Made by a program: the position numbers and the translations under genes. Shown in pieces: positions 1-21,002 of a stretch of 21,063 bases of DNA. The notes beneath the pieces are model-generated. The model was not told the origin of the DNA. It worked only from the letters and a program-made list of their open reading frames with translations, and did not search any database. The DNA comes from a virus, in the IMG/VR virus record IMGVR_UViG_3300049483_000227, positions 1 to 21,063 of that record. One strand, given 5' to 3'. How positions within the stretch are numbered: the stretch's first letter is position 1; each line of letters opens with the position of its first letter.

Positions 1-1383
1 GAAACCTCCGGCCCCTACATCGTCCGCGGCCAATCCCGCACGCGCTGGGTCAGCCTGCGTGATGCCGAAAACGCCGTCCCCGAACTGCATGCCATGCTGG
101 ATGCCGCCCAGGCCCGCCAGTTCGACGTGTTGGTCTGCAAGGACTACGACCGCTTCCGAGATATCCTGGACCAGGTCTACCGCACCATCAACGATTACCG
201 CGTCCAGCTCTACAGCCTGGTGCAGCCCATCGAACCCGCGCCCCCTGAAACCTTCGATCCCGAAACCAGCGACAGTCAGGAGCTGCTGATCAGCTTCAGC
301 CAGCTGCGCAGCCGCACCGAGATCCGCACCACCCGCCGGCGTTTCAGGACCGGGATGCCCGAACGCGTTACCCGCCACGGCCTGCCCGCCTCCATTCCCT
401 GGGGCTATCGCAAGCCGCCCGGGCGTGAAAGCGATCGCAAAGCCATCCCCGAACAGGACCCCGAACTCATTCCCCACCTGATCGCCATCAAAGATCAGTT
501 TTTATCCGGCCAATCCACCCGCCAGATCGCCGAATACCTCAATTCCAACCACATCCCCAGCCCTCAGGGCCGCCCGTGGAACGCCGTCACGGTCCGCGAA
601 AAGTTGCTCAACCCATTCTACGCCGGCACCGTGCGCTGGGGCATCACCCGCAGCCATCTCGACCGGCGCACCGGCGCCAGCACCCGCGAAACCATCGACC
701 CCGCCCAGGTCATCAGCGCGCCCGGTAAACATATCCCGCTCTGGGATGATGACACCCACCAACAGATCCTGCGCGAATTCCAGCGCCGCTCCCAGCGTTA
801 CTCCGGCAAACGCTCCAATACCCTCAGTGGGTTACTGCTCTGTGGCGTTTGCAACCATCCCATGTGGCTCAGCTACAGCCACAAAGGCCAGATCATCCAC
901 GACCCCTCCACCATCACCTGGCGCTGTGGATCACTCCAGCCCGGGCATCCCACAATCAAAAACCCTGTGGCCATCGAAAAGATTACCCAGGAAATCAAAC
1001 ACGCCATCACCCACGGCCTGCCGGCAGTCCCCGCGGCCCAGTCCGAAGACTCAAGCGCCGAAATCCTGAAACTGGTCCAACGCCGCGCCCGGATCCGCAA
1101 TGCCTACGATGCCGGCGACTACGACCTGGCCGAAATGCGCACCCGCATCGCCCCCATCGACGCCGAACTCACCGACCTGCAGGACCGCGCGCGCAATACC
1201 GCCCTCACCGAACAGGAAACCGCCGCCCGCGCCGCCCTGCTGGCCACCCTGGCCGACAACCTGGACAACATCGACGCCATCCTGAATCTCGATCGTTTAC
1301 AGGATGTTAACCATGCGTTAAAAACAATTCTCTCCTCAGTGATTATCATGGGTGATGAAACAATAAAGGTTACATTCAAGTAA
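1..1383 (+). CDS. Large serine recombinase (phage integrase), 5' end outside window
   Basis: Site-specific recombinase that would integrate and excise the phage. The reading frame is open from base 1, so 460 C-terminal residues are visible and the catalytic serine lies upstream of the window; this is a cut by the window edge, not a pseudogene. Visible in order: the end of the resolvase domain (DVLVCKDYDRFRD, matching the family's D-R-L-S-R region, then YSLVQPIEP), an Arg-rich linker helix around residues 103-116, the Recombinase domain (SIPWGYRKPPG near residue 130, then GQSTRQIAEYLNSNHIPSPQ and NPFYAGTVRWG), and a zinc-ribbon region (CGVC at about residue 281, later WRCG, with a His as possible fourth ligand). 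An Arg/Glu-rich coiled coil follows, then a short beta tail ending IKVTFK. It is the only plus-strand gene and converges on the late operon. The last ~30 codons are more AT-rich than the rest, but the ending fits the family. Confidence 0.93.
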   Translation, partial: ETSGPYIVRGQSRTRWVSLRDAENAVPELHAMLDAAQARQFDVLVCKDYDRFRDILDQVYRTINDYRVQLYSLVQPIEPAPPETFDPETSDSQELLISFSQLRSRTEIRTTRRRFRTGMPERVTRHGLPASIPWGYRKPPGRESDRKAIPEQDPELIPHLIAIKDQFLSGQSTRQIAEYLNSNHIPSPQGRPWNAVTVREKLLNPFYAGTVRWGITRSHLDRRTGASTRETIDPAQVISAPGKHIPLWDDDTHQQILREFQRRSQRYSGKRSNTLSGLLLCGVCNHPMWLSYSHKGQIIHDPSTITWRCGSLQPGHPTIKNPVAIEKITQEIKHAITHGLPAVPAAQSEDSSAEILKLVQRRARIRNAYDAGDYDLAEMRTRIAPIDAELTDLQDRARNTALTEQETAARAALLATLADNLDNIDAILNLDRLQDVNHALKTILSSVIIMGDETIKVTFK

Positions 1384-1470: not shown

Positions 1471-2883
1471 TCACACTCGTGAAAAGACCTGGGACGCAAT
1501 TTTTACCTTACCTGCGTCGTTGGGATGCAGCCCATCATCCGTGTCTGTCGCTGGATTAATCCAATTGGTTGTATCCCAATACGTCACACTAACATTGGCA
1601 CAGGCTGTTTGTATAAGTGGATTTTTTGTTGCCTGACCTCTGTCACCCGTGCTTGCGAGTATACCCAATGCGTATATCGTCGCGGTTGGATTGCTGGTCT
1701 TGAGTGCGCTCAAGTTCGTCTGGTACATCGCCCGAAAAGTATCGTCCTGAACAGAGTCATTTGTCCCCAGGAGAATAAAGATTACTTGCGCCGCATCCGA
1801 GGCGGCCTGCCCGGTCTGTTTCGTCATGTTCTCAGCATAATCAGACATGACGTGCGCACCGCTTACAGCCCAGTTGTGGTAGGGCCCTATGCCATGATTA
1901 TAATTTGACAAAAACACCGTCGCCCAGGTCGAAACCGGGACACTGATCGAGTCGCCAAGAAAAGTAAAGTTCTTCGGGTTGTTGTCATAACACAGAAAAG
2001 GGCTTGTAAACAGGTTACCTCCATACGTGCTGAACTGCATGTGTATCGTGTTGTTGTTGATCGTCGGCTCGTTGATCGTCTGGGTCGTGCCGAGCTGAGC
2101 GCCCGCCCTGTAAACGCTGTAACTCGTTCCAGACTTGACAAACTGCATCTCATTGTCATCAGGCCACGACGCGCCGGTGCTCAGGACCGACGACCAAACA
2201 CCCGCTTTCAGCAGCTCAATGCGCACATTGGATCCATCGGCATACACAAACACACCATTTTGCGGATTGGATGCGCTATCAAGATTCACACCAAAGCCGA
2301 TCTGTGTCCCTTTGATCACCCGTAATTTTTGCCGAATAATAAAATCACCGCCGGTGGTATATCTGATGGTTTTCAGGCAGGAAGGAAAATTGATCAGTTG
2401 GAATGTCGCGTCATCGGCATAGAGCAACGTACTTGCCACGCTCCTTTTCATGACTATGGAATCATTCGTGCCCACTGAACGCAAACAGGTAGTAATGGGT
2501 TGGTACGATGTTGTCATCGCGGCGGTGGTGATGCTATAAGTTCCGGAAGTCGCAACAAATGATCGTGCAGTTGGGCTTGATTTTCCTTGAAAGCTCAGTT
2601 GCGCCCAAATACCCGCATTCCAACCAGTGATGGCTTGCGATATTGCCACGTTGCTGTTTGAGCCGTCAACATCAAGCCGCACAGCATAATTTCCAGAAAC
2701 TTTATCGGTTCCTTCCCGGTTGACACTTGACGATCCGGCAATGGCTTCAACCCAATTTGTAAGGTTGGTTGCGCTTACCCAGGTTTCAAAACCACCATCC
2801 GTCAATAAATTAGCCCCTAAAATAGGTATAATTGCTTTGGCATACCTTGCTTTTCTGGCCTTCACATAAACCGTTGCGAACAT
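1471..2883 (-). CDS. Tail fibre / receptor-binding protein with C-terminal SGNH (GDSL) esterase
   Basis: 470 residues. The start ATG lies directly after the stop of the previous gene, with Shine-Dalgarno GGAGG. Three parts are visible. Residues ~24-165 resemble a CBM4/9-type carbohydrate-binding beta sandwich (LLTDGGFETW, NYAVRLDVDG). Residues ~175-300 look like a second lectin or jelly-roll segment. Residues ~305-470 are an SGNH hydrolase with all blocks: GDS (310-312, nucleophile Ser312), block II Gly342, GTND (373-376, oxyanion Asn375) and DGLHP (Asp450, His453). Known SGNH enzymes de-acylate lipids or acetylated sugars; in a virion fibre the likely substrate is an O-acetylated cell-surface glycan, which is inference. 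It is the last gene of the late operon, a usual place for host-specificity proteins, and is more AT-rich than the head genes. Confidence 0.85.
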   Translation of the reverse strand: MFATVYVKARKARYAKAIIPILGANLLTDGGFETWVSATNLTNWVEAIAGSSSVNREGTDKVSGNYAVRLDVDGSNSNVAISQAITGWNAGIWAQLSFQGKSSPTARSFVATSGTYSITTAAMTTSYQPITTCLRSVGTNDSIVMKRSVASTLLYADDATFQLINFPSCLKTIRYTTGGDFIIRQKLRVIKGTQIGFGVNLDSASNPQNGVFVYADGSNVRIELLKAGVWSSVLSTGASWPDDNEMQFVKSGTSYSVYRAGAQLGTTQTINEPTINNNTIHMQFSTYGGNLFTSPFLCYDNNPKNFTFLGDSISVPVSTWATVFLSNYNHGIGPYHNWAVSGAHVMSDYAENMTKQTGQAASDAAQVIFILLGTNDSVQDDTFRAMYQTNLSALKTSNPTATIYALGILASTGDRGQATKNPLIQTACANVSVTYWDTTNWINPATDTDDGLHPNDAGKVKIASQVFSRV

Positions 2884-5580: not shown

Positions 5581-7110
5581 CTACCAGCCGAAGATGGTGT
5601 CCACGCCAAAATCCAGAATTGGCCACACCCAGAATGTTTCCACCGAGATGTATGGTTCCAGGTAGAATGTGGTTATAACCTGTTGGCAATTTTCACCCAC
5701 TGTCTGGTGACCGATTCCCGCTACCCTGAAGGCAACACCATCAATACCCAGCCTCGCGATCTGCGCCGTGGCCACACTGAAGATATCCGGCGTAAATTGT
5801 AAAGCCGGGCGGCTATCGACTTTTACATGCGGAAAAGGATGATCATCAGACAGGAACAGCCCGATCACCCGCGCAAAATCGATGGCGACATTGATATCCT
5901 GCTGCCAGGGCAGGTCAAGTAAGAACTCGCGCGGATCTTCGGTCGTGGATATATCATCCGGATAAGTCACGTCTGCCGCATTGATCTCGTATACGGCATC
6001 ACCACGTATTTTGGGCGAGATCAGGTAAACAGTTCCGCCACCGCTGTAGCTAAATATCAATTTAGCCGAATCGCCAAAATCAGAAAATGCCAGGCTGACC
6101 TGCGCGGTCTTGTTCGTGCCGCTGCCATCGCTGGCAGTGTTCGCCGTCCAGTCCGTGGTTGCCACCGGTGTAACCACGTTTTTCGCGGGCGCAGCGGCAT
6201 TGTTGTAGGTATAGTCTGCCCAGATCACCAGCGGGGTGCCGCTCATGATCGCCGGTGCGCTGCCGGTCCACTGCCACAGGGTGACCGATGCCGCTACTGA
6301 AAGCGGGTGCACTTTGATGCGTGTTATGTTCCGGCGATTTTCCCAGGGCTGCGCCAGGTAAACATCCTTCAACAATTCTTCCTGCGTTAAATCCTCCACC
6401 GATTCGGGCACATTCACCCGGGTTGTAAATCGGGCCACACCGCTGGCTGTAATGCTGAAATAACCCAGGAACGATTCAACGAGACGTCTCAATTCAGCTG
6501 CTGCATCCCGGCTTCCCGAACTCCAGAAATAGCGGATGTTATCGGATGCCGCGTCCAGACTGCGACCCCAGCGGATGGGCCATTTCGCGGCATCCAGCAC
6601 CAGCCCGATCGCCACATCCGGAGTGATGTTCTGGTTCATGGCCACGCGCGCTGTGGCTCTGCGCAGGTTTCGCCAGCCGTCTTCAACGCACAATACCACC
6701 GTTGGCTCTTCGCCATAGTTTGAGGCCTGTATATCTGTGACCACGCCGTAGAACAGGGGGTAGATCGTGCCGGTGCGTAAATCAACTACCCGGATGCGCA
6801 CCTCCCGGCCATCGCGCACGTTCGGGTAAAGCGGGCTGGCTGTGTTCCAGGCGTCATAGCGTCCATCAGAATTCTTGAGCGTGATCTGTGCGGATCCTGT
6901 TTGCATCGCCACAAAACCGCCCTCGCCCAGATCCAGGTAGGACTGGCGCCCGCGGAAACTGCTGAAGGCAACCAGGTTCACGGCCTCGTTTGAGCCATCA
7001 AACGTGTGATCATTATCCCAATCCACCTCCACGCCCCAGGTCAGCGACTCATTGGTCACCGCGCCATACAGCGTGCCATCTCCCCAGACAAAGTTTCCCC
7101 AGCTGCTCAT
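5581..7110 (-). CDS. Tail-tip / baseplate hub-like minor tail protein
   Basis: 509 residues. The start overlaps the tape-measure stop by 4 nt (ATGA). In siphovirus gene order, the gene after the tape measure encodes distal tail or hub proteins that close the tube and anchor fibres. Visible: an N-terminal Trp-rich beta stretch (WGNFVWGDGTLYG), a segment typical of tip proteins (SAQITLKNSDGRYD, PNVRDGREVRI, GVVTDIQ), a helical stretch (AAAELRRLVESFLGYF) as in hub proteins of the gp27 type, and a beta domain at ~290-380 that looks like an insertion. The C-terminus (ITTFYLEP) also resembles hub proteins. No lytic domain was found. Confidence 0.78.
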   Translation of the reverse strand: MSSWGNFVWGDGTLYGAVTNESLTWGVEVDWDNDHTFDGSNEAVNLVAFSSFRGRQSYLDLGEGGFVAMQTGSAQITLKNSDGRYDAWNTASPLYPNVRDGREVRIRVVDLRTGTIYPLFYGVVTDIQASNYGEEPTVVLCVEDGWRNLRRATARVAMNQNITPDVAIGLVLDAAKWPIRWGRSLDAASDNIRYFWSSGSRDAAAELRRLVESFLGYFSITASGVARFTTRVNVPESVEDLTQEELLKDVYLAQPWENRRNITRIKVHPLSVAASVTLWQWTGSAPAIMSGTPLVIWADYTYNNAAAPAKNVVTPVATTDWTANTASDGSGTNKTAQVSLAFSDFGDSAKLIFSYSGGGTVYLISPKIRGDAVYEINAADVTYPDDISTTEDPREFLLDLPWQQDINVAIDFARVIGLFLSDDHPFPHVKVDSRPALQFTPDIFSVATAQIARLGIDGVAFRVAGIGHQTVGENCQQVITTFYLEPYISVETFWVWPILDFGVDTIFGW

Positions 7111-8783
7111 CGAAGCGCTCCATCAGATTTCGCGCGCTGCACCATCGAGATGAACGCCGGATAGAGCGCGTTTATGATCTGGTTTTGATCAGCCGAATTA
7201 AGCACTGTGTACACATTGGCAGTCAGCGACATCCCGCCGCCCGGGCCTGCTCCGCCACCCGCTTCGCTCATCGAGGCCCCGGCCGGGATCACTGCAAACC
7301 GTTCTCCGGATGTCAGTGTGATCGGATAGGTGTCGTTTGGGTAACCGGGCGGGACCGTCTCCCAACCATCCGTGCCGGTTGCGTGACCCTGGCTGTTCGT
7401 AAAATTCTTGACCACAAAATCTCCGGCCGCATCGCCGGTGAAATGGACGTTGATGGAAATATCTTTGCTGGTTGGCGCGCCATCGATGGCGGCCGCCAGG
7501 TCTTTGACAGTTTGCTGCGCTCTCAGCGATTCATCGACCACGGCTTGCGAGTAAATACCCCAGGCCTTGCCCTGCTCGAGCAGCGCCGCGAATTCGCCCT
7601 GTGTCAGCCCATCCATAGATAATTGTTGCTCCAACATTCCCAGGATTATCTTGCGAGAAGCCATCTCATGCTCTGCAGCATTGTCCCTGGCTGCCTGGCT
7701 GTTCTTGGCCAGCGCGCCATCGAACTCGGCGATCTTGGCCACATTCCAGGAGCCGTACTGCGCAATGTAATCGGCCTTGTCTTTCTCGATCTGGATGCGC
7801 TCTTCCGCATTGGATTTGGCCTTCTCGGCATAGCTATCTTCCGCGCTCTGCATCGATGCAATTACAGATAATTGATTTTTGAACCCATCGGACAATTCCT
7901 TGGCCGCTGCGGTCACATCTTCTTCAGCCGCGGCCAGCCCCAACGCGCTTGTGCGAGCATCCCACATCCCCATTGTGGAAGCAGTGACCGAAGCTGTGTG
8001 CGCGTCCAGTGCTTGTTTTCCGCGGTAAATCTCAGTCGCCAGGGCCTCCAGGGCATACGAAGACAGTCCTGTGGTTTTCCTGGCTTCCGTCAGCGCTTCC
8101 TGCCAATCAAGTTGCGCTTTTATCGCGTCATTGAGAACCGGAATGACCGCGGTCCCTATAGTCATCTGGAAGGCCTTCCAGCTGTCTGTCAATCTGTCCT
8201 GCTCACGCTGTAATTGGCGCGCGGCTTCGACCTGCTTTTCCGTCAGCACCAGGCTGCCTTCGACGGCGTCATTCATCGAGCGCAGCGCATTGCCACCCTG
8301 CTCCATTGCTTCCGCCATACCCAGGCCGGATTTTCCGAAGTTTTTGACCAGGAAAGCAGTTTTCTCTGCGGCGCTGCCCAGGGATTTATATTCATCCGAT
8401 AATTTCCCCAGGGTATCGATGTTCATGCTCAGCCCCTCTTTGGAAAGGGTCTTGGTGGCCATTTTTAGAACATCCGTACCAACCTTCAGATCATCCATCA
8501 CCTGCAGCAGGCGGCTCGACTCTTCCGCGCTCTGCCCGGTCAATTGCATCATGCCGCGCACTTCGTCGGCATATTTTACGGTTTCTTTGGTCGCATCGAC
8601 CGTAACCGCAGTGATGGCACCCACCGCCGCGGCGACTGCTGCCAATGGGGTTACGTTGGCAAATGCCCCCAAACCAAGGTCATTTAACGACCCCTTCAGT
8701 TCCCTGGCAGCGATCGCGGCATCCCTGTCGCCGGTGCCTTCCTTGGTAACTTTCAGGATGATCTGTAAAATGCTTTGGCCCAT
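7107..8783 (-). CDS. Tail tape measure protein
   Basis: 558 residues. It sets tail length and is threaded through the tube during assembly. Evidence: position directly after the G/GT chaperone pair, largely Ala/Lys/Glu-rich helix with coiled-coil character, a hydrophobic segment at residues ~44-63, and a Gly-rich patch near the C-terminus (GGGAGPGGG). The N-terminus (ILQIILKVTKEGTGD) matches the usual opening of this family. At the established ~0.15 nm per residue this predicts a tail near 84 nm, short for a siphovirus. The start follows the preceding stop after 1 nt and has only a weak GGG upstream, so coupled translation is likely. Confidence 0.9.
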   Translation of the reverse strand: MGQSILQIILKVTKEGTGDRDAAIAARELKGSLNDLGLGAFANVTPLAAVAAAVGAITAVTVDATKETVKYADEVRGMMQLTGQSAEESSRLLQVMDDLKVGTDVLKMATKTLSKEGLSMNIDTLGKLSDEYKSLGSAAEKTAFLVKNFGKSGLGMAEAMEQGGNALRSMNDAVEGSLVLTEKQVEAARQLQREQDRLTDSWKAFQMTIGTAVIPVLNDAIKAQLDWQEALTEARKTTGLSSYALEALATEIYRGKQALDAHTASVTASTMGMWDARTSALGLAAAEEDVTAAAKELSDGFKNQLSVIASMQSAEDSYAEKAKSNAEERIQIEKDKADYIAQYGSWNVAKIAEFDGALAKNSQAARDNAAEHEMASRKIILGMLEQQLSMDGLTQGEFAALLEQGKAWGIYSQAVVDESLRAQQTVKDLAAAIDGAPTSKDISINVHFTGDAAGDFVVKNFTNSQGHATGTDGWETVPPGYPNDTYPITLTSGERFAVIPAGASMSEAGGGAGPGGGMSLTANVYTVLNSADQNQIINALYPAFISMVQRAKSDGALR

Positions 8784-14196: not shown

Positions 14197-14964
14197 AATT
14201 GTCTCTCCTGAATGGATAGATAGATTGCATTCAGCAAGCCTGAATGCGCGCTCAATTGCACCACTGCGCGCCTGCGCAGGATCTGAACGCTCATCACTCT
14301 CGGGCGCCTGCCTTTGAGCGAGCTCGCTCCGGTGTTCATCAACAGCCAGCATTTCAGCCTGGCTGATAACTTCTTGTTTGTAATCCAGGGCTGCCACAAT
14401 CCCGGTGTTCTCAACCGCGGGCACGTTCACCGCGCTGGTTTCGTTGCCGGTCGGCTTGATAAACAGCAGCTCGCATTTCCGTTCACCGCCCGCCGTCTGG
14501 TATTTCTGGCCGGGCCAGTGGTTGCAGGTGGCGCCGAAGAAACTGGAATTACAGATCGTGCAGATCGCGTCCTCATAATCCCAACCCACGGAGAAGCGGT
14601 CCATCTTGCCTTCCAGGTAATCGATCATGCCACGCCGGGTGGTCAGGCGGATATCCTGCACGATCACGCCATTCTCCAACTTGGAGGAAAGGATCGTGCC
14701 ATCCCGCGAATTGATATCGCGCGAATCATGGTTGCGCAGGTAGGGCTGCCCTTCGAAGGATGCCGCAAAACTCGGCATGTCCTCTGTTCGGAAGACATAC
14801 GGGTTCTTGATCGCGCCGGTCCCAAAGACATTCGCGCGAAATTCCAGGTACTCAAGCTCGCCGCTCTCAATTTGCGGAAGCAGCTCGGCCCGGCTGGGCA
14901 GTGCCAGTTTTTCTATGATCGGCTGCGAATACAGCGCCGGGAAAATCGTTTTTGTTTTATCCAT
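13855..14964 (-). CDS. Prohead protease with C-terminal scaffold domain
   Basis: 369 residues, start preceded by GGAGG, overlapping the portal stop by 8 nt. Residues ~35-185 are an HK97-type prohead serine protease: probable catalytic His79 (YLRNHD), Ser125 (RFSVGWDY), and an ETSAVNVPA phrase at ~175-183 where the family's third catalytic region lies. Between them is an unusual Cys/His cluster (C135, C138, C147, H149, C164) that could bind zinc. Residues 257-369 are a Glu/Arg-rich coiled coil beginning MNVRELLSARAEK, resembling the delta/scaffold segment. The protease would cleave scaffold after shell assembly. An internal start makes the scaffold separately. Confidence 0.87.
   Translation of the reverse strand: MDKTKTIFPALYSQPIIEKLALPSRAELLPQIESGELEYLEFRANVFGTGAIKNPYVFRTEDMPSFAASFEGQPYLRNHDSRDINSRDGTILSSKLENGVIVQDIRLTTRRGMIDYLEGKMDRFSVGWDYEDAICTICNSSFFGATCNHWPGQKYQTAGGERKCELLFIKPTGNETSAVNVPAVENTGIVAALDYKQEVISQAEMLAVDEHRSELAQRQAPESDERSDPAQARSGAIERAFRLAECNLSIHSGETIMNVRELLSARAEKVTAARVLASLADTENRDFSETERAEFNQLMDAAEDLGRQITVINTERARLLEAESSLAQTPDPIKPEGSKNAKIKTLAEFNALSATERMAFVKSGGNVQD
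14208..14247 (-). promoter_or_regulatory. Alternative hairpins upstream of the nested scaffold start
   Basis: On the minus strand CATTCAG occurs twice (14246-14240 and 14214-14208) with its complement CTGAATG between them (14234-14228). The middle arm can pair with the first copy (8-bp stem, 5-nt loop) or with the second, which overlaps the start of the scaffold Shine-Dalgarno (CAGGAGA). This could let translation of the protease control scaffold initiation. Seen in sequence; function is inferred. Confidence 0.4.
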
Positions 14965-16540
14965 TCAAACCTCCGCAAATGGCTGCTGTCATCTCGGCTG
15001 GTGTCTGTCTCAGCCAGGTTTCGATATCGGCTTCAAGCTCGGCCAGGTTGCCGCGCTGTTGCAACTCAACCTCACGCTGGCTCAGATAAACATCGATGTA
15101 ATCTTGAAAAGCATCCGTCATGTCCAAACCGAACAGGCGCTTTTGGGCATCCAGCAGCGGCTGCATCTGGCGCTGCGCAAATTCCGCGTGCTCCGTCCCG
15201 TAAAACTCATTTACCCAGGTATGAAACTCAGCATATTCATGCTTTGCCAGGTAGCGTTTCGCGGCGCCGCGCAGGTCATTCATTTCCCGGCGCACGATGC
15301 GCTGGCAGGTATCCAGGAACAATGGCTGCAGGGCATCGGCCTTGCCAGGTTTGACATCCTTGCTGTTGCCCATGTTCAGTGGGTGGTAGAACTCATCGCC
15401 GCCTTCATACGGGTTCATATTCTCACGGCTGCGCGCTTCGTTGGGACTCATAAAGCCGTTATTGATCGCTTTTACATAGGCCTCATAGCGGGTGGCCAGA
15501 TCGCCACGAACCAGGCCATCTGCCAGGTGCTCAAAATACAAGTTGTTGCGGTCCTTGGCCAGCAGGAGCTGTTGCGATAGACTCTGCTCAATGCGCACCA
15601 TCCACGGTCGCAGTGTATGCGACACATAACCCTGTTCCTGGCTGTCAATCCCGCTGCCCCAGCTGGTGGTGTTGGTAACATCACCAATCATGTGCGGAGG
15701 CACCCGGAAGATACGCGCGATTTCACTGACCTGGAACTGCCTGGTCTGCAGGAACTGGGCATCCTGCATCGGCATGCCGATCGTGGCCAGATCCATGCCC
15801 TCTTCCAGGATGGCGGGCTTCCAGGAATTGTCCGCGCCCTTGTGATCTTCGTTCCAGCTATCGCGCAAATGTTCATACGCCTTATCGCCGATTTTTTGCG
15901 GGTGCTTCAGGACAATACCCGGGCGGGCATCGTTGGCAAAGAACTTGCTGCCGAATTTCTCCGCGCTGATCGCCAGGCCAATCGCGTTCCTGGCCAGCGC
16001 GATCCGACTGTAACCGATCAGGCCATCAAAACCAAAGGCCGGGATATGCAGGATATCGTCACTGTTGAACTTGCGCGGTTTGCCCTCATTGGTCATGTAG
16101 GTGAAAACCCGCTGGCCTTTGACTCTCTCAACCGTCATCCGGTCCGGACGCAGCGGCCAGATCTCCGTCACGACTCCGGCATCATCCCAGATCATTTGCC
16201 CGTAGAAATTACCCCAGGCCAGCAAGTGCGAAACCATCAGCTCACGGAAAACCATGCTGGTATGTTCCGGGTTCGGCCGGTCGTGCATCAGCACATAATA
16301 AGGATCTCCGTAAGCACGTTCTTTCCCGCGCGTCTTGCGCCGGTACTCGATCAACGGAAGACTGCTGATATCCTCGGCAATGATCGTGAAGGCGGCCAGC
16401 ACCGCGCTGACGGACAGAGCGCCTTCTGGCGTGATGATCTCGCCCGTCTGGGACCGCTCACGTGAACCGCCACTGCGCCGCGCGTAGGTATTGGTTTCCA
16501 CAGGCGCCGTGCTGGGGCCTGTTCTCGGCTCAAATAACAT
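14957..16540 (-). CDS. Portal protein, HK97 family
   Basis: 527 residues from MLFEPRTG, chosen because GGAGG lies upstream; the in-frame ATG 33 nt earlier lies deeper in the preceding gene. It forms the dodecameric ring at the unique head vertex through which DNA is packaged. Family landmarks in order: VSAVLAAFTIIAEDISSLPL (~45-64), RPNPEHTSMVFRELMVSHLL (~88-107), WPLRPDRMTV, DDILHIPAFGFDGLIGYSRI (~161-180), IARIFRVPPHMIGD (274-287), SWGSGIDSQ and TLRPWMVRIEQSL (~309-321). The C-terminus is Glu/Arg-rich and helical. Upstream overlap 11 nt, downstream overlap with protease 8 nt. Confidence 0.94.
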   Translation of the reverse strand: MLFEPRTGPSTAPVETNTYARRSGGSRERSQTGEIITPEGALSVSAVLAAFTIIAEDISSLPLIEYRRKTRGKERAYGDPYYVLMHDRPNPEHTSMVFRELMVSHLLAWGNFYGQMIWDDAGVVTEIWPLRPDRMTVERVKGQRVFTYMTNEGKPRKFNSDDILHIPAFGFDGLIGYSRIALARNAIGLAISAEKFGSKFFANDARPGIVLKHPQKIGDKAYEHLRDSWNEDHKGADNSWKPAILEEGMDLATIGMPMQDAQFLQTRQFQVSEIARIFRVPPHMIGDVTNTTSWGSGIDSQEQGYVSHTLRPWMVRIEQSLSQQLLLAKDRNNLYFEHLADGLVRGDLATRYEAYVKAINNGFMSPNEARSRENMNPYEGGDEFYHPLNMGNSKDVKPGKADALQPLFLDTCQRIVRREMNDLRGAAKRYLAKHEYAEFHTWVNEFYGTEHAEFAQRQMQPLLDAQKRLFGLDMTDAFQDYIDVYLSQREVELQQRGNLAELEADIETWLRQTPAEMTAAICGGLNG

Positions 16541-16742
16541 TACGCGCCTCCGCCTTTGACATAAGCCAGCCATTCAGCATGCCGGTGCAAACCAGGATGC
16601 CACCATCTGCCACCAGCGCAGGCCCCAGGCCGAACCAAAGCCACAAACCCGTGAATACAGCGAACAACCCGATGAGATACATGATCTCGCTGGGGCCCAT
16701 CCGCAATCCTTTTTTCACGGTCTGCTTTTCCGGTTCTGCCAT
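16530..16742 (-). CDS. Small two-helix membrane protein, holin-like candidate
   Basis: 70 residues from MAEPEKQTVKKG. An in-frame ATG 33 nt upstream lies inside the terminator hairpin of the cassette, so the later start is preferred, although its ribosome site is weak (AGGGTG). A charged N-terminus is followed by two hydrophobic spans (IMYLIGLFAVFTGLWLWFGL and ALVADGGILVCTGML) and a short charged tail (SKAEARNVI). Size and topology fit a small holin, and a muramidase is encoded nearby in the same operon, but position next to the portal gene is not typical and sequence gives no family match. Confidence 0.72.
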   Translation of the reverse strand: MAEPEKQTVKKGLRMGPSEIMYLIGLFAVFTGLWLWFGLGPALVADGGILVCTGMLNGWLMSKAEARNVI

Positions 16743-16754
16743 GTGCACCCTAAA

Positions 16755-16839
16755 CAAAATCGCCCGGCAAACCATATTGAATGGTTTGCCGGGCGCTCAT
16801 CTCCGACGGTGACCGCACAAGAGCGGTCTGCTCAACTTC
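16755..16839 (-). ncRNA. Putative small RNA, cassette copy 1
   Basis: Predicted transcript of about 85 nt from the promoter at 16846-16874 to the terminator at 16761-16795. It holds a 6-bp hairpin (GACCGC/GCGGTC, loop TCTTGT, 16811-16828), then the block CGTCGGAGATGAGCGCC (16792-16808) that runs into the terminator stem. A near-copy lies on the other side of the 112-residue gene. I do not recognise the RNA. It may be a free regulatory RNA or an attenuator for the membrane-protein/portal block. Confidence 0.6.
16761..16795 (-). terminator. Intrinsic terminator, cassette copy 1
   Basis: A perfect 15-bp stem (CGCCCGGCAAACCAT) with a 5-nt loop, followed on the minus strand by ATTTTGTTTA. It stands between the 112-residue gene and the portal block, so late transcription must pass it, possibly by antitermination. 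Confidence 0.85.
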
Positions 16840-16845
16840 AAATTG

Positions 16846-16874
16846 AGTATACAACCGATTGCTACTTTTTACAA
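16846..16874 (-). promoter_or_regulatory. Sigma-70-like promoter, cassette copy 1
   Basis: Minus strand TTGTAA, 17-bp spacer, TATACT. The -35 box begins two bases after the stop codon of the 112-residue gene. The hexamers and spacing match those of copy 2 although the spacer sequence mostly differs. Confidence 0.7.
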
Positions 16875-16876
16875 CT

Positions 16877-17215
16877 TTATTGTGAGACCAAATACAGCAG
16901 ATCATCGCCCGCGTTCGTGCAGATGATCCAGACTTTATTCAGGTTGGGGATCGGCAGCGGAGGCGACCACTCACCGGCCACCAGCTGCACACCGCTCGTC
17001 ACATCCGTGGTACCTTCCGGCATCGTGGCGCCGCTCGATGTGCACAACGTCACAAGCCCGGCATTGCTGGGCGCCGCCTGCAGCCAGAACAGCTTGCCTT
17101 CTACATCCGGCAACTGCTTGGCTGTCACCGACCCGCTGACTTCGCCGCTCACCAGGGTATTCGCCACCTGGTTGATATTCTTGATCGCGTAATTCGATCC
17201 ACCATCACCTGGCAT
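16877..17215 (-). CDS. Small beta-rich protein flanked by the twin RNA cassettes, possible virion decoration
   Basis: 112 residues, start preceded by AAAGGAG at a good spacing. The sequence is beta-rich without charge clusters or membrane spans. The phrases VEGKLFWLQAAPSNAGLVTL, VQLVAGEW and PNLNKVWIICTNAGDDLLYL resemble small phage proteins with an N-A-G, then L-x-x-G-E, then L-N-K-V-W pattern that are thought to be virion decoration or adaptor parts; this is from memory and uncertain. It is the only gene of the operon with its own promoter-terminator unit on each side, so it may be expressed separately or be a later insertion. Confidence 0.72.
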   Translation of the reverse strand: MPGDGGSNYAIKNINQVANTLVSGEVSGSVTAKQLPDVEGKLFWLQAAPSNAGLVTLCTSSGATMPEGTTDVTSGVQLVAGEWSPPLPIPNLNKVWIICTNAGDDLLYLVSQ

Positions 17216-17232
17216 AATAACGCTCCTTTGAC

Positions 17233-17248
17233 CGTTTCTACGGAAACG
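17233..17248. repeat. Palindrome CGTTTC-N4-GAAACG (one of three)
   Basis: A 6-4-6 inverted repeat between the copy 2 terminator and the ribosome site of the 112-residue gene. The same arms recur at 11248-11263 and 10641-10656, both inside genes where they encode R-F-x-G-N. The noncoding copy could be an operator or just a small mRNA hairpin. Confidence 0.4.
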
Positions 17249-17330
17249 AAAACGCCCGACAGACTCCCAAAGGAATCTGCCAGGCGCTCATCTCTGACGA
17301 TGCCCGCACAAGAGCGAGCTGCTTGATTTC
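17247..17330 (-). ncRNA. Putative small RNA, cassette copy 2
   Basis: Predicted transcript of about 84 nt from the promoter at 17337-17365 to the terminator at 17253-17286. The hairpin at 17302-17319 keeps the loop TCTTGT while its stem is GCTCGC/GCGGGC, so paired positions changed together relative to copy 1. The block CGTCAGAGATGAGCGCC (17283-17299) differs from copy 1 at one base of 17. It starts right after terL and precedes the 112-residue gene. Confidence 0.6.
17253..17286 (-). terminator. Intrinsic terminator, cassette copy 2
   Basis: A 15-bp stem including three G-U pairs (CGCCTGGCAGATTCC with GGAGTCTGTCGGGCG), 4-nt loop, followed on the minus strand by TTTTCGTTT. The stem bases differ from copy 1 in the upper half while pairing is kept, so structure rather than sequence is conserved. 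Confidence 0.82.
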
Positions 17331-17336
17331 AATCTC

Positions 17337-17365
17337 AGTATACAACCGCTTTTCGTTTTCCACAA
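17337..17365 (-). promoter_or_regulatory. Sigma-70-like promoter, cassette copy 2
   Basis: Minus strand TTGTGG, 17-bp spacer, TATACT. The -35 box begins two bases after the terL stop, the same offset from a stop codon as in copy 1. Confidence 0.68.
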
Positions 17366-17367
17366 TA

Positions 17368-19077
17368 CTACAATCTGCGGATCCCGCGCTCATCATACAC
17401 ACTCGTGCCCGATTCGCGCAGGCTCTGGACCCTGACCACGGCATCCAGCACCGCGGCCAGCAGGTCCACGCGCCTGGAATCGTTGATCTGCTTTTTGCTG
17501 ATGCGAATATTTTCGTTGTTGTCCTGCATGGTGACCGCGTTACCGATGCACCAGCGCAGCAGCGGGCTGCCATCGTGGACCAGCTTGCCCGTGGCCACCA
17601 GATCGCGAAATAGTTTGGTCGGCTCGCTCAAAGTTTGCACACCTTGGCGGATTTCGACCGTGGTGTAGCCCTGATCAGCCATCTCGTTGGCAAAATGGGT
17701 CGCATTGTAGGGATCAAAGCACAGCTCATGCACGCGCCAGCCGTTCTGCAGCTCCATATCCTGGATGTGACTCTGGATAAATGCGTAATCCGTGACGCTC
17801 CCAGGCGTCAAGGTCAGCCATCCGGCCGCGGCCCACTCGGGATAAGTGGCGGTTTTGTCGCTTTTTTCATGGCTGGCCAGCCCTGCCTGGGGCATAAATC
17901 CATGCGCAGTGACCGCGATCCTGCCATCCGGCAGCGCAAAAACAAAGCCATCCGCGGTAAGATCGATCTTCTTGGACAGATCGATGCCCACATTGCAGGC
18001 CAGATCCTTGGTCAGTACCAGGAATTCCTCGCGGCTGATCGCCAGTTTGTCCCAATCTTCCAGGTAAGCGCCCATATAGCTGTCTTCAGCCCCATGCACC
18101 CAGCGGTTGAGGTTCTTAACCCGAAATGTGCGGATCTTCGCAGGGTTCCGGCTGCCGAAGGCCTCGTCATGCTGCTCCTGTAGTTTTTCCAGCCCTGCAG
18201 GAGTGGCTGCCCGCAGTGGGTTGGCCTTGATCCAATTGGCCGGGTCGTGCTCATCGTCATCCGCATCCAATTCGCGGATCATCACGAAGTAGCGCTCGTT
18301 CTCGACGACTCCGGTCAGGATCTCTTTGCAGTAGTCATATTCCTTGTGGCACGGGCTTTCAACATCCATGCCCGCGGTGGTAATGATCGTCATCAAGGCC
18401 TGCGCGCGCTGGCCCCAGGCGGACCAGAGCAGATCATAGATTTCCGATGTCGGATGTGCGTGGTATTCATCGATGATCGCCCCGGATGGATTGAGACCGT
18501 CCTTGTTTTTGGTGTCCTTCGAGAGCGCCACCATCTGTCCGCCGCGGGTGATGTGCGCAATCTCGTAGTCGCGGATCTTCAAGCGTTTGCGAATGTCCAG
18601 CGACTTGCGCGCCATCGCCATTGCGGACCGGTACAGGATGCGCGCCTGCTGCCGGTCAACCGCGGCGCAGTAGACAGACGGACTCTCTTCCAGATCTCCC
18701 ACCATCAGGTATAAGGCCACCCCTGAAAGGATGGTGGTCTTGGCATTCTTGCGCGCTTCCTGGATGTATGCTTTCTGGTAGCGCCGGTAACCGCTCTCCG
18801 GATCAACCCACCCGAACAGGTTACCCAGGTCAAACTGCTGGAATGGCAGCAGCTCTATCGTGGTGCCTGCCAGCGGGCCTTCCACGTGACGGCAGTGTTC
18901 GAACCAGCGCACGATCCGATCAGCCCGGGCCTCGTCGAAGACATACGGGAAGTCATCCGAGCCCACCCGCTGCAGGTCATCCAGGTGCCGCTGGCATGCG
19001 CGCAGCTCAGACTCTCCCACGACTCGCAGTCCATTGACCACATCCAGCGCGTACTGGGTTACCGGGTGCACAGCCAT
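17368..19077 (-). CDS. terL: Terminase large subunit, HK97-like
   Basis: 569 residues. ATPase motor and nuclease that cuts concatemers and pumps DNA through the portal. ATPase part: Walker A-like ARKNAKTT (108-115; Ala replaces the more usual Gly before Lys), Walker B GAIIDEYH (199-206, catalytic Glu204), coupling motif TTAG (233-236). Nuclease part of RNase H fold: Asp365 (NVGIDLS), Asp455 (LCFDPYN) and Asp538 (RRVDLLAA). Length and order are full for the family. The start ATG is 4 nt downstream of the lysozyme stop; the nearby AGCAGG is a weak, close ribosome site, so coupling is likely. Confidence 0.95.
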   Translation of the reverse strand: MAVHPVTQYALDVVNGLRVVGESELRACQRHLDDLQRVGSDDFPYVFDEARADRIVRWFEHCRHVEGPLAGTTIELLPFQQFDLGNLFGWVDPESGYRRYQKAYIQEARKNAKTTILSGVALYLMVGDLEESPSVYCAAVDRQQARILYRSAMAMARKSLDIRKRLKIRDYEIAHITRGGQMVALSKDTKNKDGLNPSGAIIDEYHAHPTSEIYDLLWSAWGQRAQALMTIITTAGMDVESPCHKEYDYCKEILTGVVENERYFVMIRELDADDDEHDPANWIKANPLRAATPAGLEKLQEQHDEAFGSRNPAKIRTFRVKNLNRWVHGAEDSYMGAYLEDWDKLAISREEFLVLTKDLACNVGIDLSKKIDLTADGFVFALPDGRIAVTAHGFMPQAGLASHEKSDKTATYPEWAAAGWLTLTPGSVTDYAFIQSHIQDMELQNGWRVHELCFDPYNATHFANEMADQGYTTVEIRQGVQTLSEPTKLFRDLVATGKLVHDGSPLLRWCIGNAVTMQDNNENIRISKKQINDSRRVDLLAAVLDAVVRVQSLRESGTSVYDERGIRRL

Positions 19078-19081
19078 CCTG

Positions 19082-20521
19082 CTAGATTTTCCAATCCGTC
19101 ATATTTGCATCGTTATATCTGAGCGCGATCCAGCCGCTGTCGATCTTGCCCCAGATCCCGCCTTTGGCAATGCGCACTTCATAAATCGTCACGTTGGCGC
19201 CCCACAGTTTGGACCCCACCTTGACCGATGACACATCCGGCAGCTCACGCACATTGATCCAGGGGAAAGCCGTGACTCTCACGGCTTTTGGCAGCATCGC
19301 ATCCACAGGCTCAAGCCATTCCATACGCACGTAGCGCGGACCATCGCCCATGATCGGCACACGCGCCGCGAATGCCAGGTCGAACCATGTCCATTTTGTG
19401 TTTGATCCGTAGACCGTGTGCACCAGGTGCGGAGTGTCCTTGTAGTTGATCTCTGGACCTGGCACAGCCACAGGTAATGACTCAAGCTGGCCCCATTTTT
19501 CACCGTCAATGCCAGTCATGGTTTTTAGGATCCAGACGAGGTTGCGCCCTGGGTAGATCAGGTTATTAATGATCAGTCCGTTTTTGTTGAAACCTTTGGA
19601 CGGTCCCCAGTCCGGAGCAACTATCTTCTCGTATGCCTTCGCGGAGTTGGTGAGTTTCAGATAGTCGATCAGGTCTTGCCGGATGACAACGTCTTTGTCT
19701 CCGCTTGTCTTGGTAACGTTATAGTTTGGGGTGACAAGCGGCCCGCCATTCGGGCGCGCCCAGTAAGCGGCCCGCGCAAACACATACAACCCGGATCCAG
19801 TCACAGGCTCACCCGTGACCGGTGGCTCCCCAACAACCACGGGTGATTCCTGCCCAAAGTAAGCAGCCAGATCATCCGTATTCCCGTAAAACAGGTTTAC
19901 ATCCATCTTGCGTGTGCTGCCTGGCAGGGTCAGGAAGTCGCCGCCGAACTGCCACATCTTCACATTGCCAGGACAACTTTCAATATTGAATGGACGCAAA
20001 AGAACCGGATGATCCAGGCGTAATTTGAGATCATCCCAGGTTGAGATACCACTGAAATATTTCACAGGATCTGGGTATTGCGCCCACCAGTAATCCACGC
20101 GCGGCCAGGACTTCAGGTTAGCCAGGAACCATTGCGCGGTATAGATGATCGTCTTCCAGCCCTTCATGTCGCACAGGTCAAGAAACTTGACTACCTCCCC
20201 GGCGTAGGTCGCGGGAGAGTAGCCAGACATGCGTACCTCGATGTCGATGGCCACGGCCATGCAGCCCGCTGGCATGTGAGCATTCAGCCAGTCATAGTTC
20301 GCACGGCCATCCACCCAGGGGTTGTAGACAAAATAGGGGAAGCGCACAAAGTTGGCAGCCTCCGCCCACTGTTTGGCGAAACCGGCATCCTCGTGGTGGC
20401 CGCCGTTCATGTCATTAATCCGGATGCCCATCCCCGCGACTCCGTTGGCTTTCAACACAGCCTCGTCAATCTCCAGCTGCCCTTCCCACGTATCGATCAC
20501 CAAACAAGTATTAGGTTTCAC
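19082..20521 (-). CDS. GH25 lysozyme (endolysin) with C-terminal SH3b domain
   Basis: 479 residues from a GTG start that has GAGGAG six nt upstream, 10 nt after the terS stop; an ATG 48 nt earlier would lie inside terS. GH25 muramidases cut the MurNAc-GlcNAc bond of peptidoglycan. Catalytic pattern is complete: Asp10 (LVIDTW), Asp93 and Glu95 (AIDIEV), and Asp207 (KMDVN) after MWQFGGD; spacing closely matches pneumococcal phage Cpl-1. A Pro/Val/Gly-rich linker (~226-243) leads to a region of unknown fold and then a bacterial SH3-type domain at ~414-470 (INVRELPDV, WGKIDSGWIALRY), probably wall-binding. No signal peptide is seen, so a holin would be needed. Its place between terS and terL is unusual. 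Confidence 0.88.
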   Translation of the reverse strand: MKPNTCLVIDTWEGQLEIDEAVLKANGVAGMGIRINDMNGGHHEDAGFAKQWAEAANFVRFPYFVYNPWVDGRANYDWLNAHMPAGCMAVAIDIEVRMSGYSPATYAGEVVKFLDLCDMKGWKTIIYTAQWFLANLKSWPRVDYWWAQYPDPVKYFSGISTWDDLKLRLDHPVLLRPFNIESCPGNVKMWQFGGDFLTLPGSTRKMDVNLFYGNTDDLAAYFGQESPVVVGEPPVTGEPVTGSGLYVFARAAYWARPNGGPLVTPNYNVTKTSGDKDVVIRQDLIDYLKLTNSAKAYEKIVAPDWGPSKGFNKNGLIINNLIYPGRNLVWILKTMTGIDGEKWGQLESLPVAVPGPEINYKDTPHLVHTVYGSNTKWTWFDLAFAARVPIMGDGPRYVRMEWLEPVDAMLPKAVRVTAFPWINVRELPDVSSVKVGSKLWGANVTIYEVRIAKGGIWGKIDSGWIALRYNDANMTDWKI

Positions 20522-20531
20522 TGCTGACTCC

Positions 20532-21002
20532 TCAATCGAACTCTTCACCAAAGCCGTCCAGCTTCTCATCGGCTTCCTTCTTGGCCAGCCTGGCGCGCCC
20601 GCTGGGTGTCAGACCCAACTTATCAGCGTACCCGGATAAGAGCCTGGCATAAGCCTGTAGACTCTTGATGCCTTCGCTGGTCAGCATCTCCGGTTTGCCG
20701 GTCTCGTCGATCTTCGGTATGCTGAGCTGCTTGTACTTGATCACCGTGTCGCAGTAGATGGCCAGCATGTTCTCGTCCAGGTTGTCCAGGAGCTGCAGGC
20801 CTTTGGTCTGCCTCTGGATGCGCTTCCAGATCAGCAGCGCTTCAGGGGTCAGCCAATCCGGCGCCTTCATGCGCACCTTGGTCTTGCGCGTGATGCCTTC
20901 CTCGGCTTCCTGGCGTGCCTGGACCTGGGCCGCGGTCCAGTGTTTCCCGCTGCCCTTTTTTCCAATTTCCATGTTCTTGGCTGAAACGTGTCTTGCTGGC
21001 AT
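20532..21002 (-). CDS. terS: Terminase small subunit, P27 family
   Basis: 156 residues. DNA-recognition subunit that brings phage DNA to TerL. A basic N-terminus (KNMEIGKKGSGKHW) is followed by helices with LTPEALLIWKRIQRQTKGLQLLDNLDENMLAIYCDTVIKY and the signature C-terminal phrase KLGLTPSGRARLAKK. Length fits. GAGAG lies about 6 nt upstream of the ATG; Met11 is an alternative start without a better site. Confidence 0.88.
   Translation of the reverse strand: MPARHVSAKNMEIGKKGSGKHWTAAQVQARQEAEEGITRKTKVRMKAPDWLTPEALLIWKRIQRQTKGLQLLDNLDENMLAIYCDTVIKYKQLSIPKIDETGKPEMLTSEGIKSLQAYARLLSGYADKLGLTPSGRARLAKKEADEKLDGFGEEFD

Follow-up and report, generated by a model that had tools for sequence, protein, structure and literature searches.

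Paired leader units in a phage late operon resemble a previously undescribed on/off switch, with a small zinc-finger-like protein as its probable operator

RESULTS

Two Promoter-Hairpin-Terminator Units Lie in One Late Operon

The late operon of an uncultured virus (IMG/VR record IMGVR_UViG_3300049483_000227) carries two closely similar repeats in successive gene gaps, each with the parts of a complete short transcription unit. The whole stretch of DNA analyzed, 21,063 nucleotides, is referred to as the window. The initial annotation, which gave no strand, had described twin repeats of about 115 nt with TTGTRR, a 17-nt spacer, TATACT, a hairpin, a near-identical block, and a terminator. All of these parts were found, and both copies are on the minus strand, where the order is terL, copy 2, a 112-aa ORF, copy 1, a 70-aa membrane protein ORF, and portal. 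The features are as follows.

17368 to 19077, minus strand: terL, directly upstream of copy 2
17337 to 17365, minus strand: copy 2 promoter; -35 TTGTGG at 17365-17360, 17-nt spacer, -10 TATACT at 17342-17337
17302 to 17319, minus strand: copy 2 first hairpin (HP1), GCUCGC-UCUUGU-GCGGGC, from folding and covariation
17294 to 17298, minus strand: copy 2 antiterminator 5' strand GUCAG; partner CUGGC at 17283-17279
17249 to 17286, minus strand: copy 2 intrinsic terminator; 5' arm from 17286, U tract 17252-17249
16877 to 17215, minus strand: 112-aa ORF behind copy 2; no match in Pfam, PHROG, or NCBIfam
16846 to 16874, minus strand: copy 1 promoter; -35 TTGTAA at 16874-16869, 17-nt spacer, -10 TATACT at 16851-16846
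16811 to 16828, minus strand: copy 1 HP1, GACCGC-UCUUGU-GCGGUC, from folding and covariation
16803 to 16807, minus strand: copy 1 antiterminator 5' strand GUCGG; partner CCGGC at 16792-16788 in the terminator 5' arm
16754 to 16795, minus strand: copy 1 intrinsic terminator; 15-bp stem 16795-16761 and U tract
16530 to 16742, minus strand: 70-aa membrane protein ORF behind copy 1, then portal
14957 to 16573, minus strand: portal, after the 70-aa membrane protein ORF

Copy 2 begins 2 nt past the terL stop codon (17370-17368), and copy 1 begins 2 nt past the stop codon of the 112-aa ORF (16879-16877). Spacer length and -10 box are common to both copies, and the -35 hexamers differ. The terminator stem of copy 2 has 15-18 bp including G-U pairs. 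The copies are 82% identical over 74 nt, and the 17-nt block after HP1, which has a 6-bp stem in each copy, is the same at 16 of 17 positions; two matches to this block were obtained in none of 100 shuffles. When the whole window was scanned with the full covariance model and filters off, the copies scored 84.6 and 72.6 bits and everything else 19.8 bits or less; because both copies sit in the training set of that model, independent support comes from the relatives described below. A coding reading of the frame RLYTxxExxQxALVRxxSEMSA, which is open in both copies, was rejected: on inspection, the changes between the copies show no third-position bias and the hairpins are preserved. The shared open frame is a by-product of the repeat.

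Other genes of the window were recorded in passing. A serine recombinase gene with Recombinase and zinc-ribbon domains (94-1383, plus strand) faces the late operon, so that the phage is probably temperate. The last gene of the late operon (1471-2883, minus strand) encodes a GDSL/SGNH hydrolase domain protein, perhaps a tail-associated enzyme, and a weak terminator-like match lies at 1437-1508. A GH25-type endolysin-like gene (19082-20569, minus strand) is located between terS and terL, an unusual spot for a lysis gene.

The Units Belong to an RNA Family of Uncultured Phages

Further copies were gathered by pattern scans and from terL relatives in IMG/VR. A covariance model (R1) built on 11 copies found matches in about 25 terL-related loci, and the refined models R2 and R3, together with a later scan using the neighbor protein described below, brought the family to 44 distinct members on about 30 metagenomic phage contigs. 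Every member consists of a sigma70-type promoter, HP1, a linker, an intrinsic terminator, and the ribosome binding site (RBS) of the next late gene. When scored with the model for the type to which they belong, most members, many of them training sequences, reach 60-95 bits, and the nearest noise reached 35-39 bits in 189 genomes from the phylum of one Myxococcales metagenome-assembled genome. Two weak matches in those genomes were judged to be chance terminators, and a pattern scan of genome contigs gave only Myxococcales and Bradyrhizobium matches, which were also taken as chance. In the terL tree, the phages that carry the element group together in a single clade (support 98/94).

No element was found in L016 and L017, two relatives with terL identities of 70% and 68%, or in terL-related phages from isolate genomes, and no record in a phage collection convincingly matched copy 1 or the two queried proteins. 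No Rfam family matched the element at its gathering threshold, and a relaxed scan gave sub-threshold matches only. The sole Rfam match above threshold was a tRNA gene (65.9 bits) at 2954-3027 of L118 (contig IMGVR_UViG_3300035660_000035), on the opposite strand and at most 1.5 kb from a unit in the terL-portal region. A literature search, with most subscription journals outside its scope, found no such element described. The initial annotation had expected a covariance search to return matches between structural genes with promoter and terminator conserved, and had pointed to a comparison with Rfam; the search bore out the expectation, and the duplicated, promoter-driven RNA that the annotation predicted, about 85 nt long, is kept by the relatives between late genes. 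Judged by these searches, the units are a real and widespread RNA family that is absent from Rfam.

The First Hairpin Appears to Be Recognized as RNA

A perfect TATAAT was present upstream in 47% of members, compared with 0.5% of random positions and 2.7% of shuffled upstream sequence (38 members). Across the family, the spacer is not conserved except for a G four bases before the -10 box and averages 0.14 bit per column, a family-wide test that still allows a different DNA site in each phage.

HP1 occurs in two types, called by inspection and with models whose training sets were these same sequences, and the two are plainly different in sequence: type 1 resembles GACCGC-UCUUGU-GCGGUC and has 6-8 bp, and type 2 resembles GUCCUGG..CCGGGAC with about 8 bp. 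Compensatory changes were found in both types, and the terminator covaries too. The apical loop UCUUGU is conserved in many type 1 hairpins and is not kept family-wide, and loop lengths vary. Type 2 hairpins often contain wobble pairs, and at one of their pairs a wobble is the commonest state (9 of 13). Paired HP1 changes distinguish the two sites within a phage, and the similarity of two units from the same genome was marginal once HP1 type was controlled (247/5000). Taken together, the lack of a conserved DNA motif in the spacer, the G-U wobbles, and the variable loop lengths point to recognition of HP1 as RNA and not as DNA.

The Linker Pairs with the 5' Arm of the Terminator

The linker carries a pentamer, GUCGG in most members, that is complementary to the start of the terminator 5' arm (CCGAC). 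The two elements change together (GUCAG/CUGAC, GCCAG/CUGGC, GUUGG/CCAAC, AUCGG/CCGAU, and UUCGG/CCGAA). All five pairs of this antiterminator helix can form in 35 of 44 members and four of five in the other 9. The pairing score was 584, against 506.5 ± 13.6 when the arms were permuted among members, and none of 2000 permutations scored as high. In a 22-row alignment the helix was 83.5% paired, compared with 17-50% in slid registers. Because 24 of 44 members combine pairing to the 5' arm with a linker that deviates from the terminator 3' arm, the constraint on it is the 5'-arm pairing and not a copying of the 3' arm.

Folding of truncated transcripts gave the antiterminator hairpin a median probability of 0.88, with values above 0.5 in 29 of 38 cases; once the 3' arm was present, the probability fell to about 0. 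The median energies were -5.3 kcal/mol for the antiterminator and -27.3 kcal/mol for the terminator. A hairpin this weak that forms only before the 3' arm emerges would be metastable and would need help to win. Copy 2 of the window is a weak case (probability 0.19), with a competing fold preferred before termination, and site I of L009 has only a 3-bp core. A transcription attenuator is recognized by a helix that is exclusive with the terminator and supported by covariation, and such a helix was found here. Two other candidate pairings, UUGAGC with the HP1 5' arm and CGCUC with GAGCG, were rejected because they are broken in L008 site I and elsewhere. In a subgroup (L094 2136-2232, L063 1835-1931, and L021 9094-9199), an extra small hairpin (AGUAGAUCGAAAGAUGAA-like) is nested inside the antiterminator loop.

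The Units Occupy Fixed Sites in the Late Operon

Every unit directly precedes the RBS of a late gene, and the units recur at two sites. At site I the order is a small ORF, the unit, a membrane protein gene, an HNH-type ORF, terS, and terL; the gene directly behind the unit had 2-4 predicted membrane segments in all eight cases checked. At this site, late genes are preceded by a promoter, a leader, and a terminator, and a candidate regulator gene lies immediately upstream of these. At site II the unit follows terL and stands ahead of a small membrane protein gene, sometimes another small ORF, and portal. Among single-phage contigs longer than 30 kb, seven of ten had two units and three had one (G022, G023, and G024), and a 67.7-kb contig with two phage regions had four. 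Both units of the window are of the site II kind, the extra one preceding the 112-aa ORF. The window contig stops just upstream of terS, so that site I and the expected zinc-ribbon gene fall outside it.

A Zinc-Ribbon-like Protein Is Linked to the Units and Matched to the Hairpin Type

The small ORF before site I has the pattern CxxC..CxxC in one protein family (family 1) and C..HxH..C..C in another (family 2). It matched no Pfam or NCBIfam family above cut-off and no PHROG significantly, and the Pfam scan gave no match at E ≤ 0.1 to the Q families PF06530, PF03589, and PF06323. The structure model was of fair quality (pLDDT 83, best of five). A PDB fold search with it returned nothing, and a viral structure library returned one unnamed match, A0A1P8DJL1 (E 4e-4). 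The two families are collinear in their C-terminal part and may be remote relatives, but hhalign gave no demonstrable homology (probability 6%).

The protein profiles matched all 13 terL-related element loci with at least 3.5 kb of upstream sequence and none of 34 loci without the element, a comparison that is not phylogenetically independent because element and protein both follow the terL clade. Both are absent from the close relatives L016 and L017. In L017 an unrelated 85-aa ORF (8036-8293), possibly a replacement late regulator, lies ahead of the membrane protein gene. Of 11 loci newly fetched with the protein, several of which belong to contigs already known from terL, eight had the element just downstream (L130, L131, L134, L136, L137, L138, L139, and L140); in a separate scan, the element lay at most about 100 nt downstream of the zinc-ribbon gene in most protein-retrieved loci. 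It was about 2 kb downstream in L135 and absent there in L132 and L133. In L135 the zinc-ribbon ORF and an intact unit I are separated by some 2 kb of additional DNA (6310-8360). Four loci keep the zinc-ribbon gene and lack the first unit (L020, L021, L132, and L133).

Where the protein is known, family 1 goes with HP1 type 1 in 9 of 9 phages and family 2 with type 2 in 13 of 13. HP1 type changed at least three times inside the element clade of the terL tree. In L038 both units are of type 2 and flank a terL whose nearest tree relative, L065, carries type 1. Such matching would be expected if protein and RNA form a recognition pair; alternatively, recombination may have exchanged whole modules.

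DISCUSSION

Proposed Mechanism

In our reading, the late genes appear to be turned on and off by a previously undescribed kind of switch, and the small zinc-finger-like protein whose gene adjoins the first switch probably operates it. The computation established the family, its promoter, HP1, alternative pairing, and placement, and the linkage and type matching of the protein. From these features we infer default termination in the cell, antitermination, and binding of HP1 by a protein. We consider it probable that each unit is an attenuated late promoter leader that is opened by a phage factor acting on HP1, and the zinc-ribbon-like protein would be the likeliest such factor. Host RNA polymerase would start at the sigma70-type promoter, and the leader would fold HP1 and then the small antiterminator hairpin from the linker and the terminator 5' arm. 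By default, the emerging 3' arm would let the much stronger terminator displace the antiterminator, and an RNA of about 85 nt would be released. In the lytic phase, the phage factor would bind HP1, perhaps together with the antiterminator hairpin, on the nascent RNA. It could then block formation of the terminator or render the polymerase terminator-resistant, with a local or a processive effect. The genes behind would be transcribed: the membrane or lysis-type protein and terminase, and portal, capsid, and tail. The likeliest factor is encoded just upstream of the first unit, in the position of the lambda gene Q.

Alternative Explanations

The same attenuator might answer to another signal, such as a host factor, the ribosome, a metabolite, or another phage protein, with the zinc-ribbon gene as a linked neighbor only. 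Binding of HP1 by the zinc-ribbon protein is our inference, and the gene is retained in phages without unit I, as this reading would allow. We regard it as unlikely, since the type matching also holds for unit II, on the far side of terL, where linkage by itself is weaker (L038 versus L065), and element and protein are absent together from L016 and L017.

The main reading of the initial annotation was a stand-alone small RNA gene. A trans-acting RNA of about 85 nt, carried as a moron between late genes, would account for the promoter and terminator predicted for each unit, for the short default product, and for the UCUUGU loop of many type 1 members. It would not need a linker that covaries with the terminator 5' arm, the HP1 loop varies across the family, and the units always stand directly before the RBS of a late gene, at fixed sites and with a matched protein. 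The covariation of the linker with its own terminator, the placement, and the fixed sites with their partner protein favor a cis-acting attenuator, and we hold the small RNA gene to be improbable as the main reading.

As alternatives, the annotation had named paired attenuators and a put-like element; the attenuator is the one favored here. In a put-like element, HP1 and the antiterminator hairpin would modify RNA polymerase without a phage protein, and two short stem-loops by the promoter in two copies per genome do recall HK022 putL and putR (PMC9378689). A constitutive antiterminator would make the attached terminator pointless, the 3' strand of stem II is shared with the terminator, and the matched protein families would be left over, so that this factor-independent mode is rather more doubtful still. 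Even less probable is that HP1 serves as a DNA operator, its inverted repeat being bound by a repressor or an activator, and that a constitutive terminator insulates the operon. Between about +10 and +30 of the promoter HP1 does form a dyad, but its common wobble pairs, its varying half-site spacing, and the paired changes between the two sites of one phage speak against this, and the antiterminator covariation would be left unexplained. That the RNA has a structural or packaging role at the terminase/portal motor, in the manner of phi29 pRNA, is hardly credible, because only site II adjoins terL and portal, site I lying at a distance from portal and preceding a gene for a membrane protein, and because of the antiterminator covariation and the promoter and terminator attached to each copy.

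Comparison with Known Systems

We see about an even chance that the units represent a new class of phage antitermination, in which a zinc-ribbon protein of no known family recognizes a leader hairpin on the nascent RNA and holds the antiterminator at two or three late promoters, with two specificity types. If true, the principle of lambda Q, in which a leader terminator follows a late promoter, would be joined to recognition of an RNA hairpin and to an antiterminator switch. The RNA family itself lies outside Rfam, shows strong covariation in each of two folds that exclude one another, is associated with the late genes of uncultured phages, and is accompanied by a candidate cognate protein; the two matched specificity types offer a ready-made test by swaps of hairpins and proteins.

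The closest parallel in circuit position is lambda pR', with the 6S leader and tR', and Q, also in phages 21 and 82 and with AlpA in Pseudomonas: there, too, a late promoter, a short leader, and an intrinsic terminator precede late or lysis genes. The lambda Q gene lies directly upstream of its promoter, as the zinc-ribbon-like ORF lies by site I. For Q to act, a DNA site in the spacer that separates the -35 and -10 boxes is needed, as is a pause element resembling a -10 box (PMC6606751, PMC7171158). In contrast, the phage units conserve RNA and not spacer DNA, they recur inside the operon, and the candidate protein matches no Q family. Judged by these sequence features, the units are not part of the Q system as it is defined by the Q families and a conserved DNA site.

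The put RNAs of HK022, likened here by description, are also promoter-proximal, about 70-85 nt long, built of short stem-loops, and present twice per genome. They act on early genes without a protein, and their description has no adjoining terminator that shares a strand (PMC9378689). In the LoaP/dfn system, the 5' leader contains a promoter, a small protein-bound hairpin, and a terminator (PMC12691694). The order of promoter, hairpin, and terminator is the same in the phage units, which differ in having an antiterminator helix that overlaps the terminator. LoaP, a paralogue of NusG, acts on antibiotic operons, whereas the candidate here is a zinc-ribbon-like phage protein.

In the RAT leaders of LicT, SacY, and BglG and in riboswitch-type attenuators, one strand is common to the antiterminator and the terminator, so that only one of the two can form. 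The phage units likewise share a strand between the two exclusive structures. They differ in that they have no Rfam match and precede phage late genes instead of metabolic genes, and in that their candidate protein does not belong to the PRD type. A hairpin is also used by N/boxB. The phage switch would thus resemble lambda pR'/Q in its position in the circuit, LoaP/dfn or N/boxB in its use of a hairpin, and LicT-type leaders in the switch itself.
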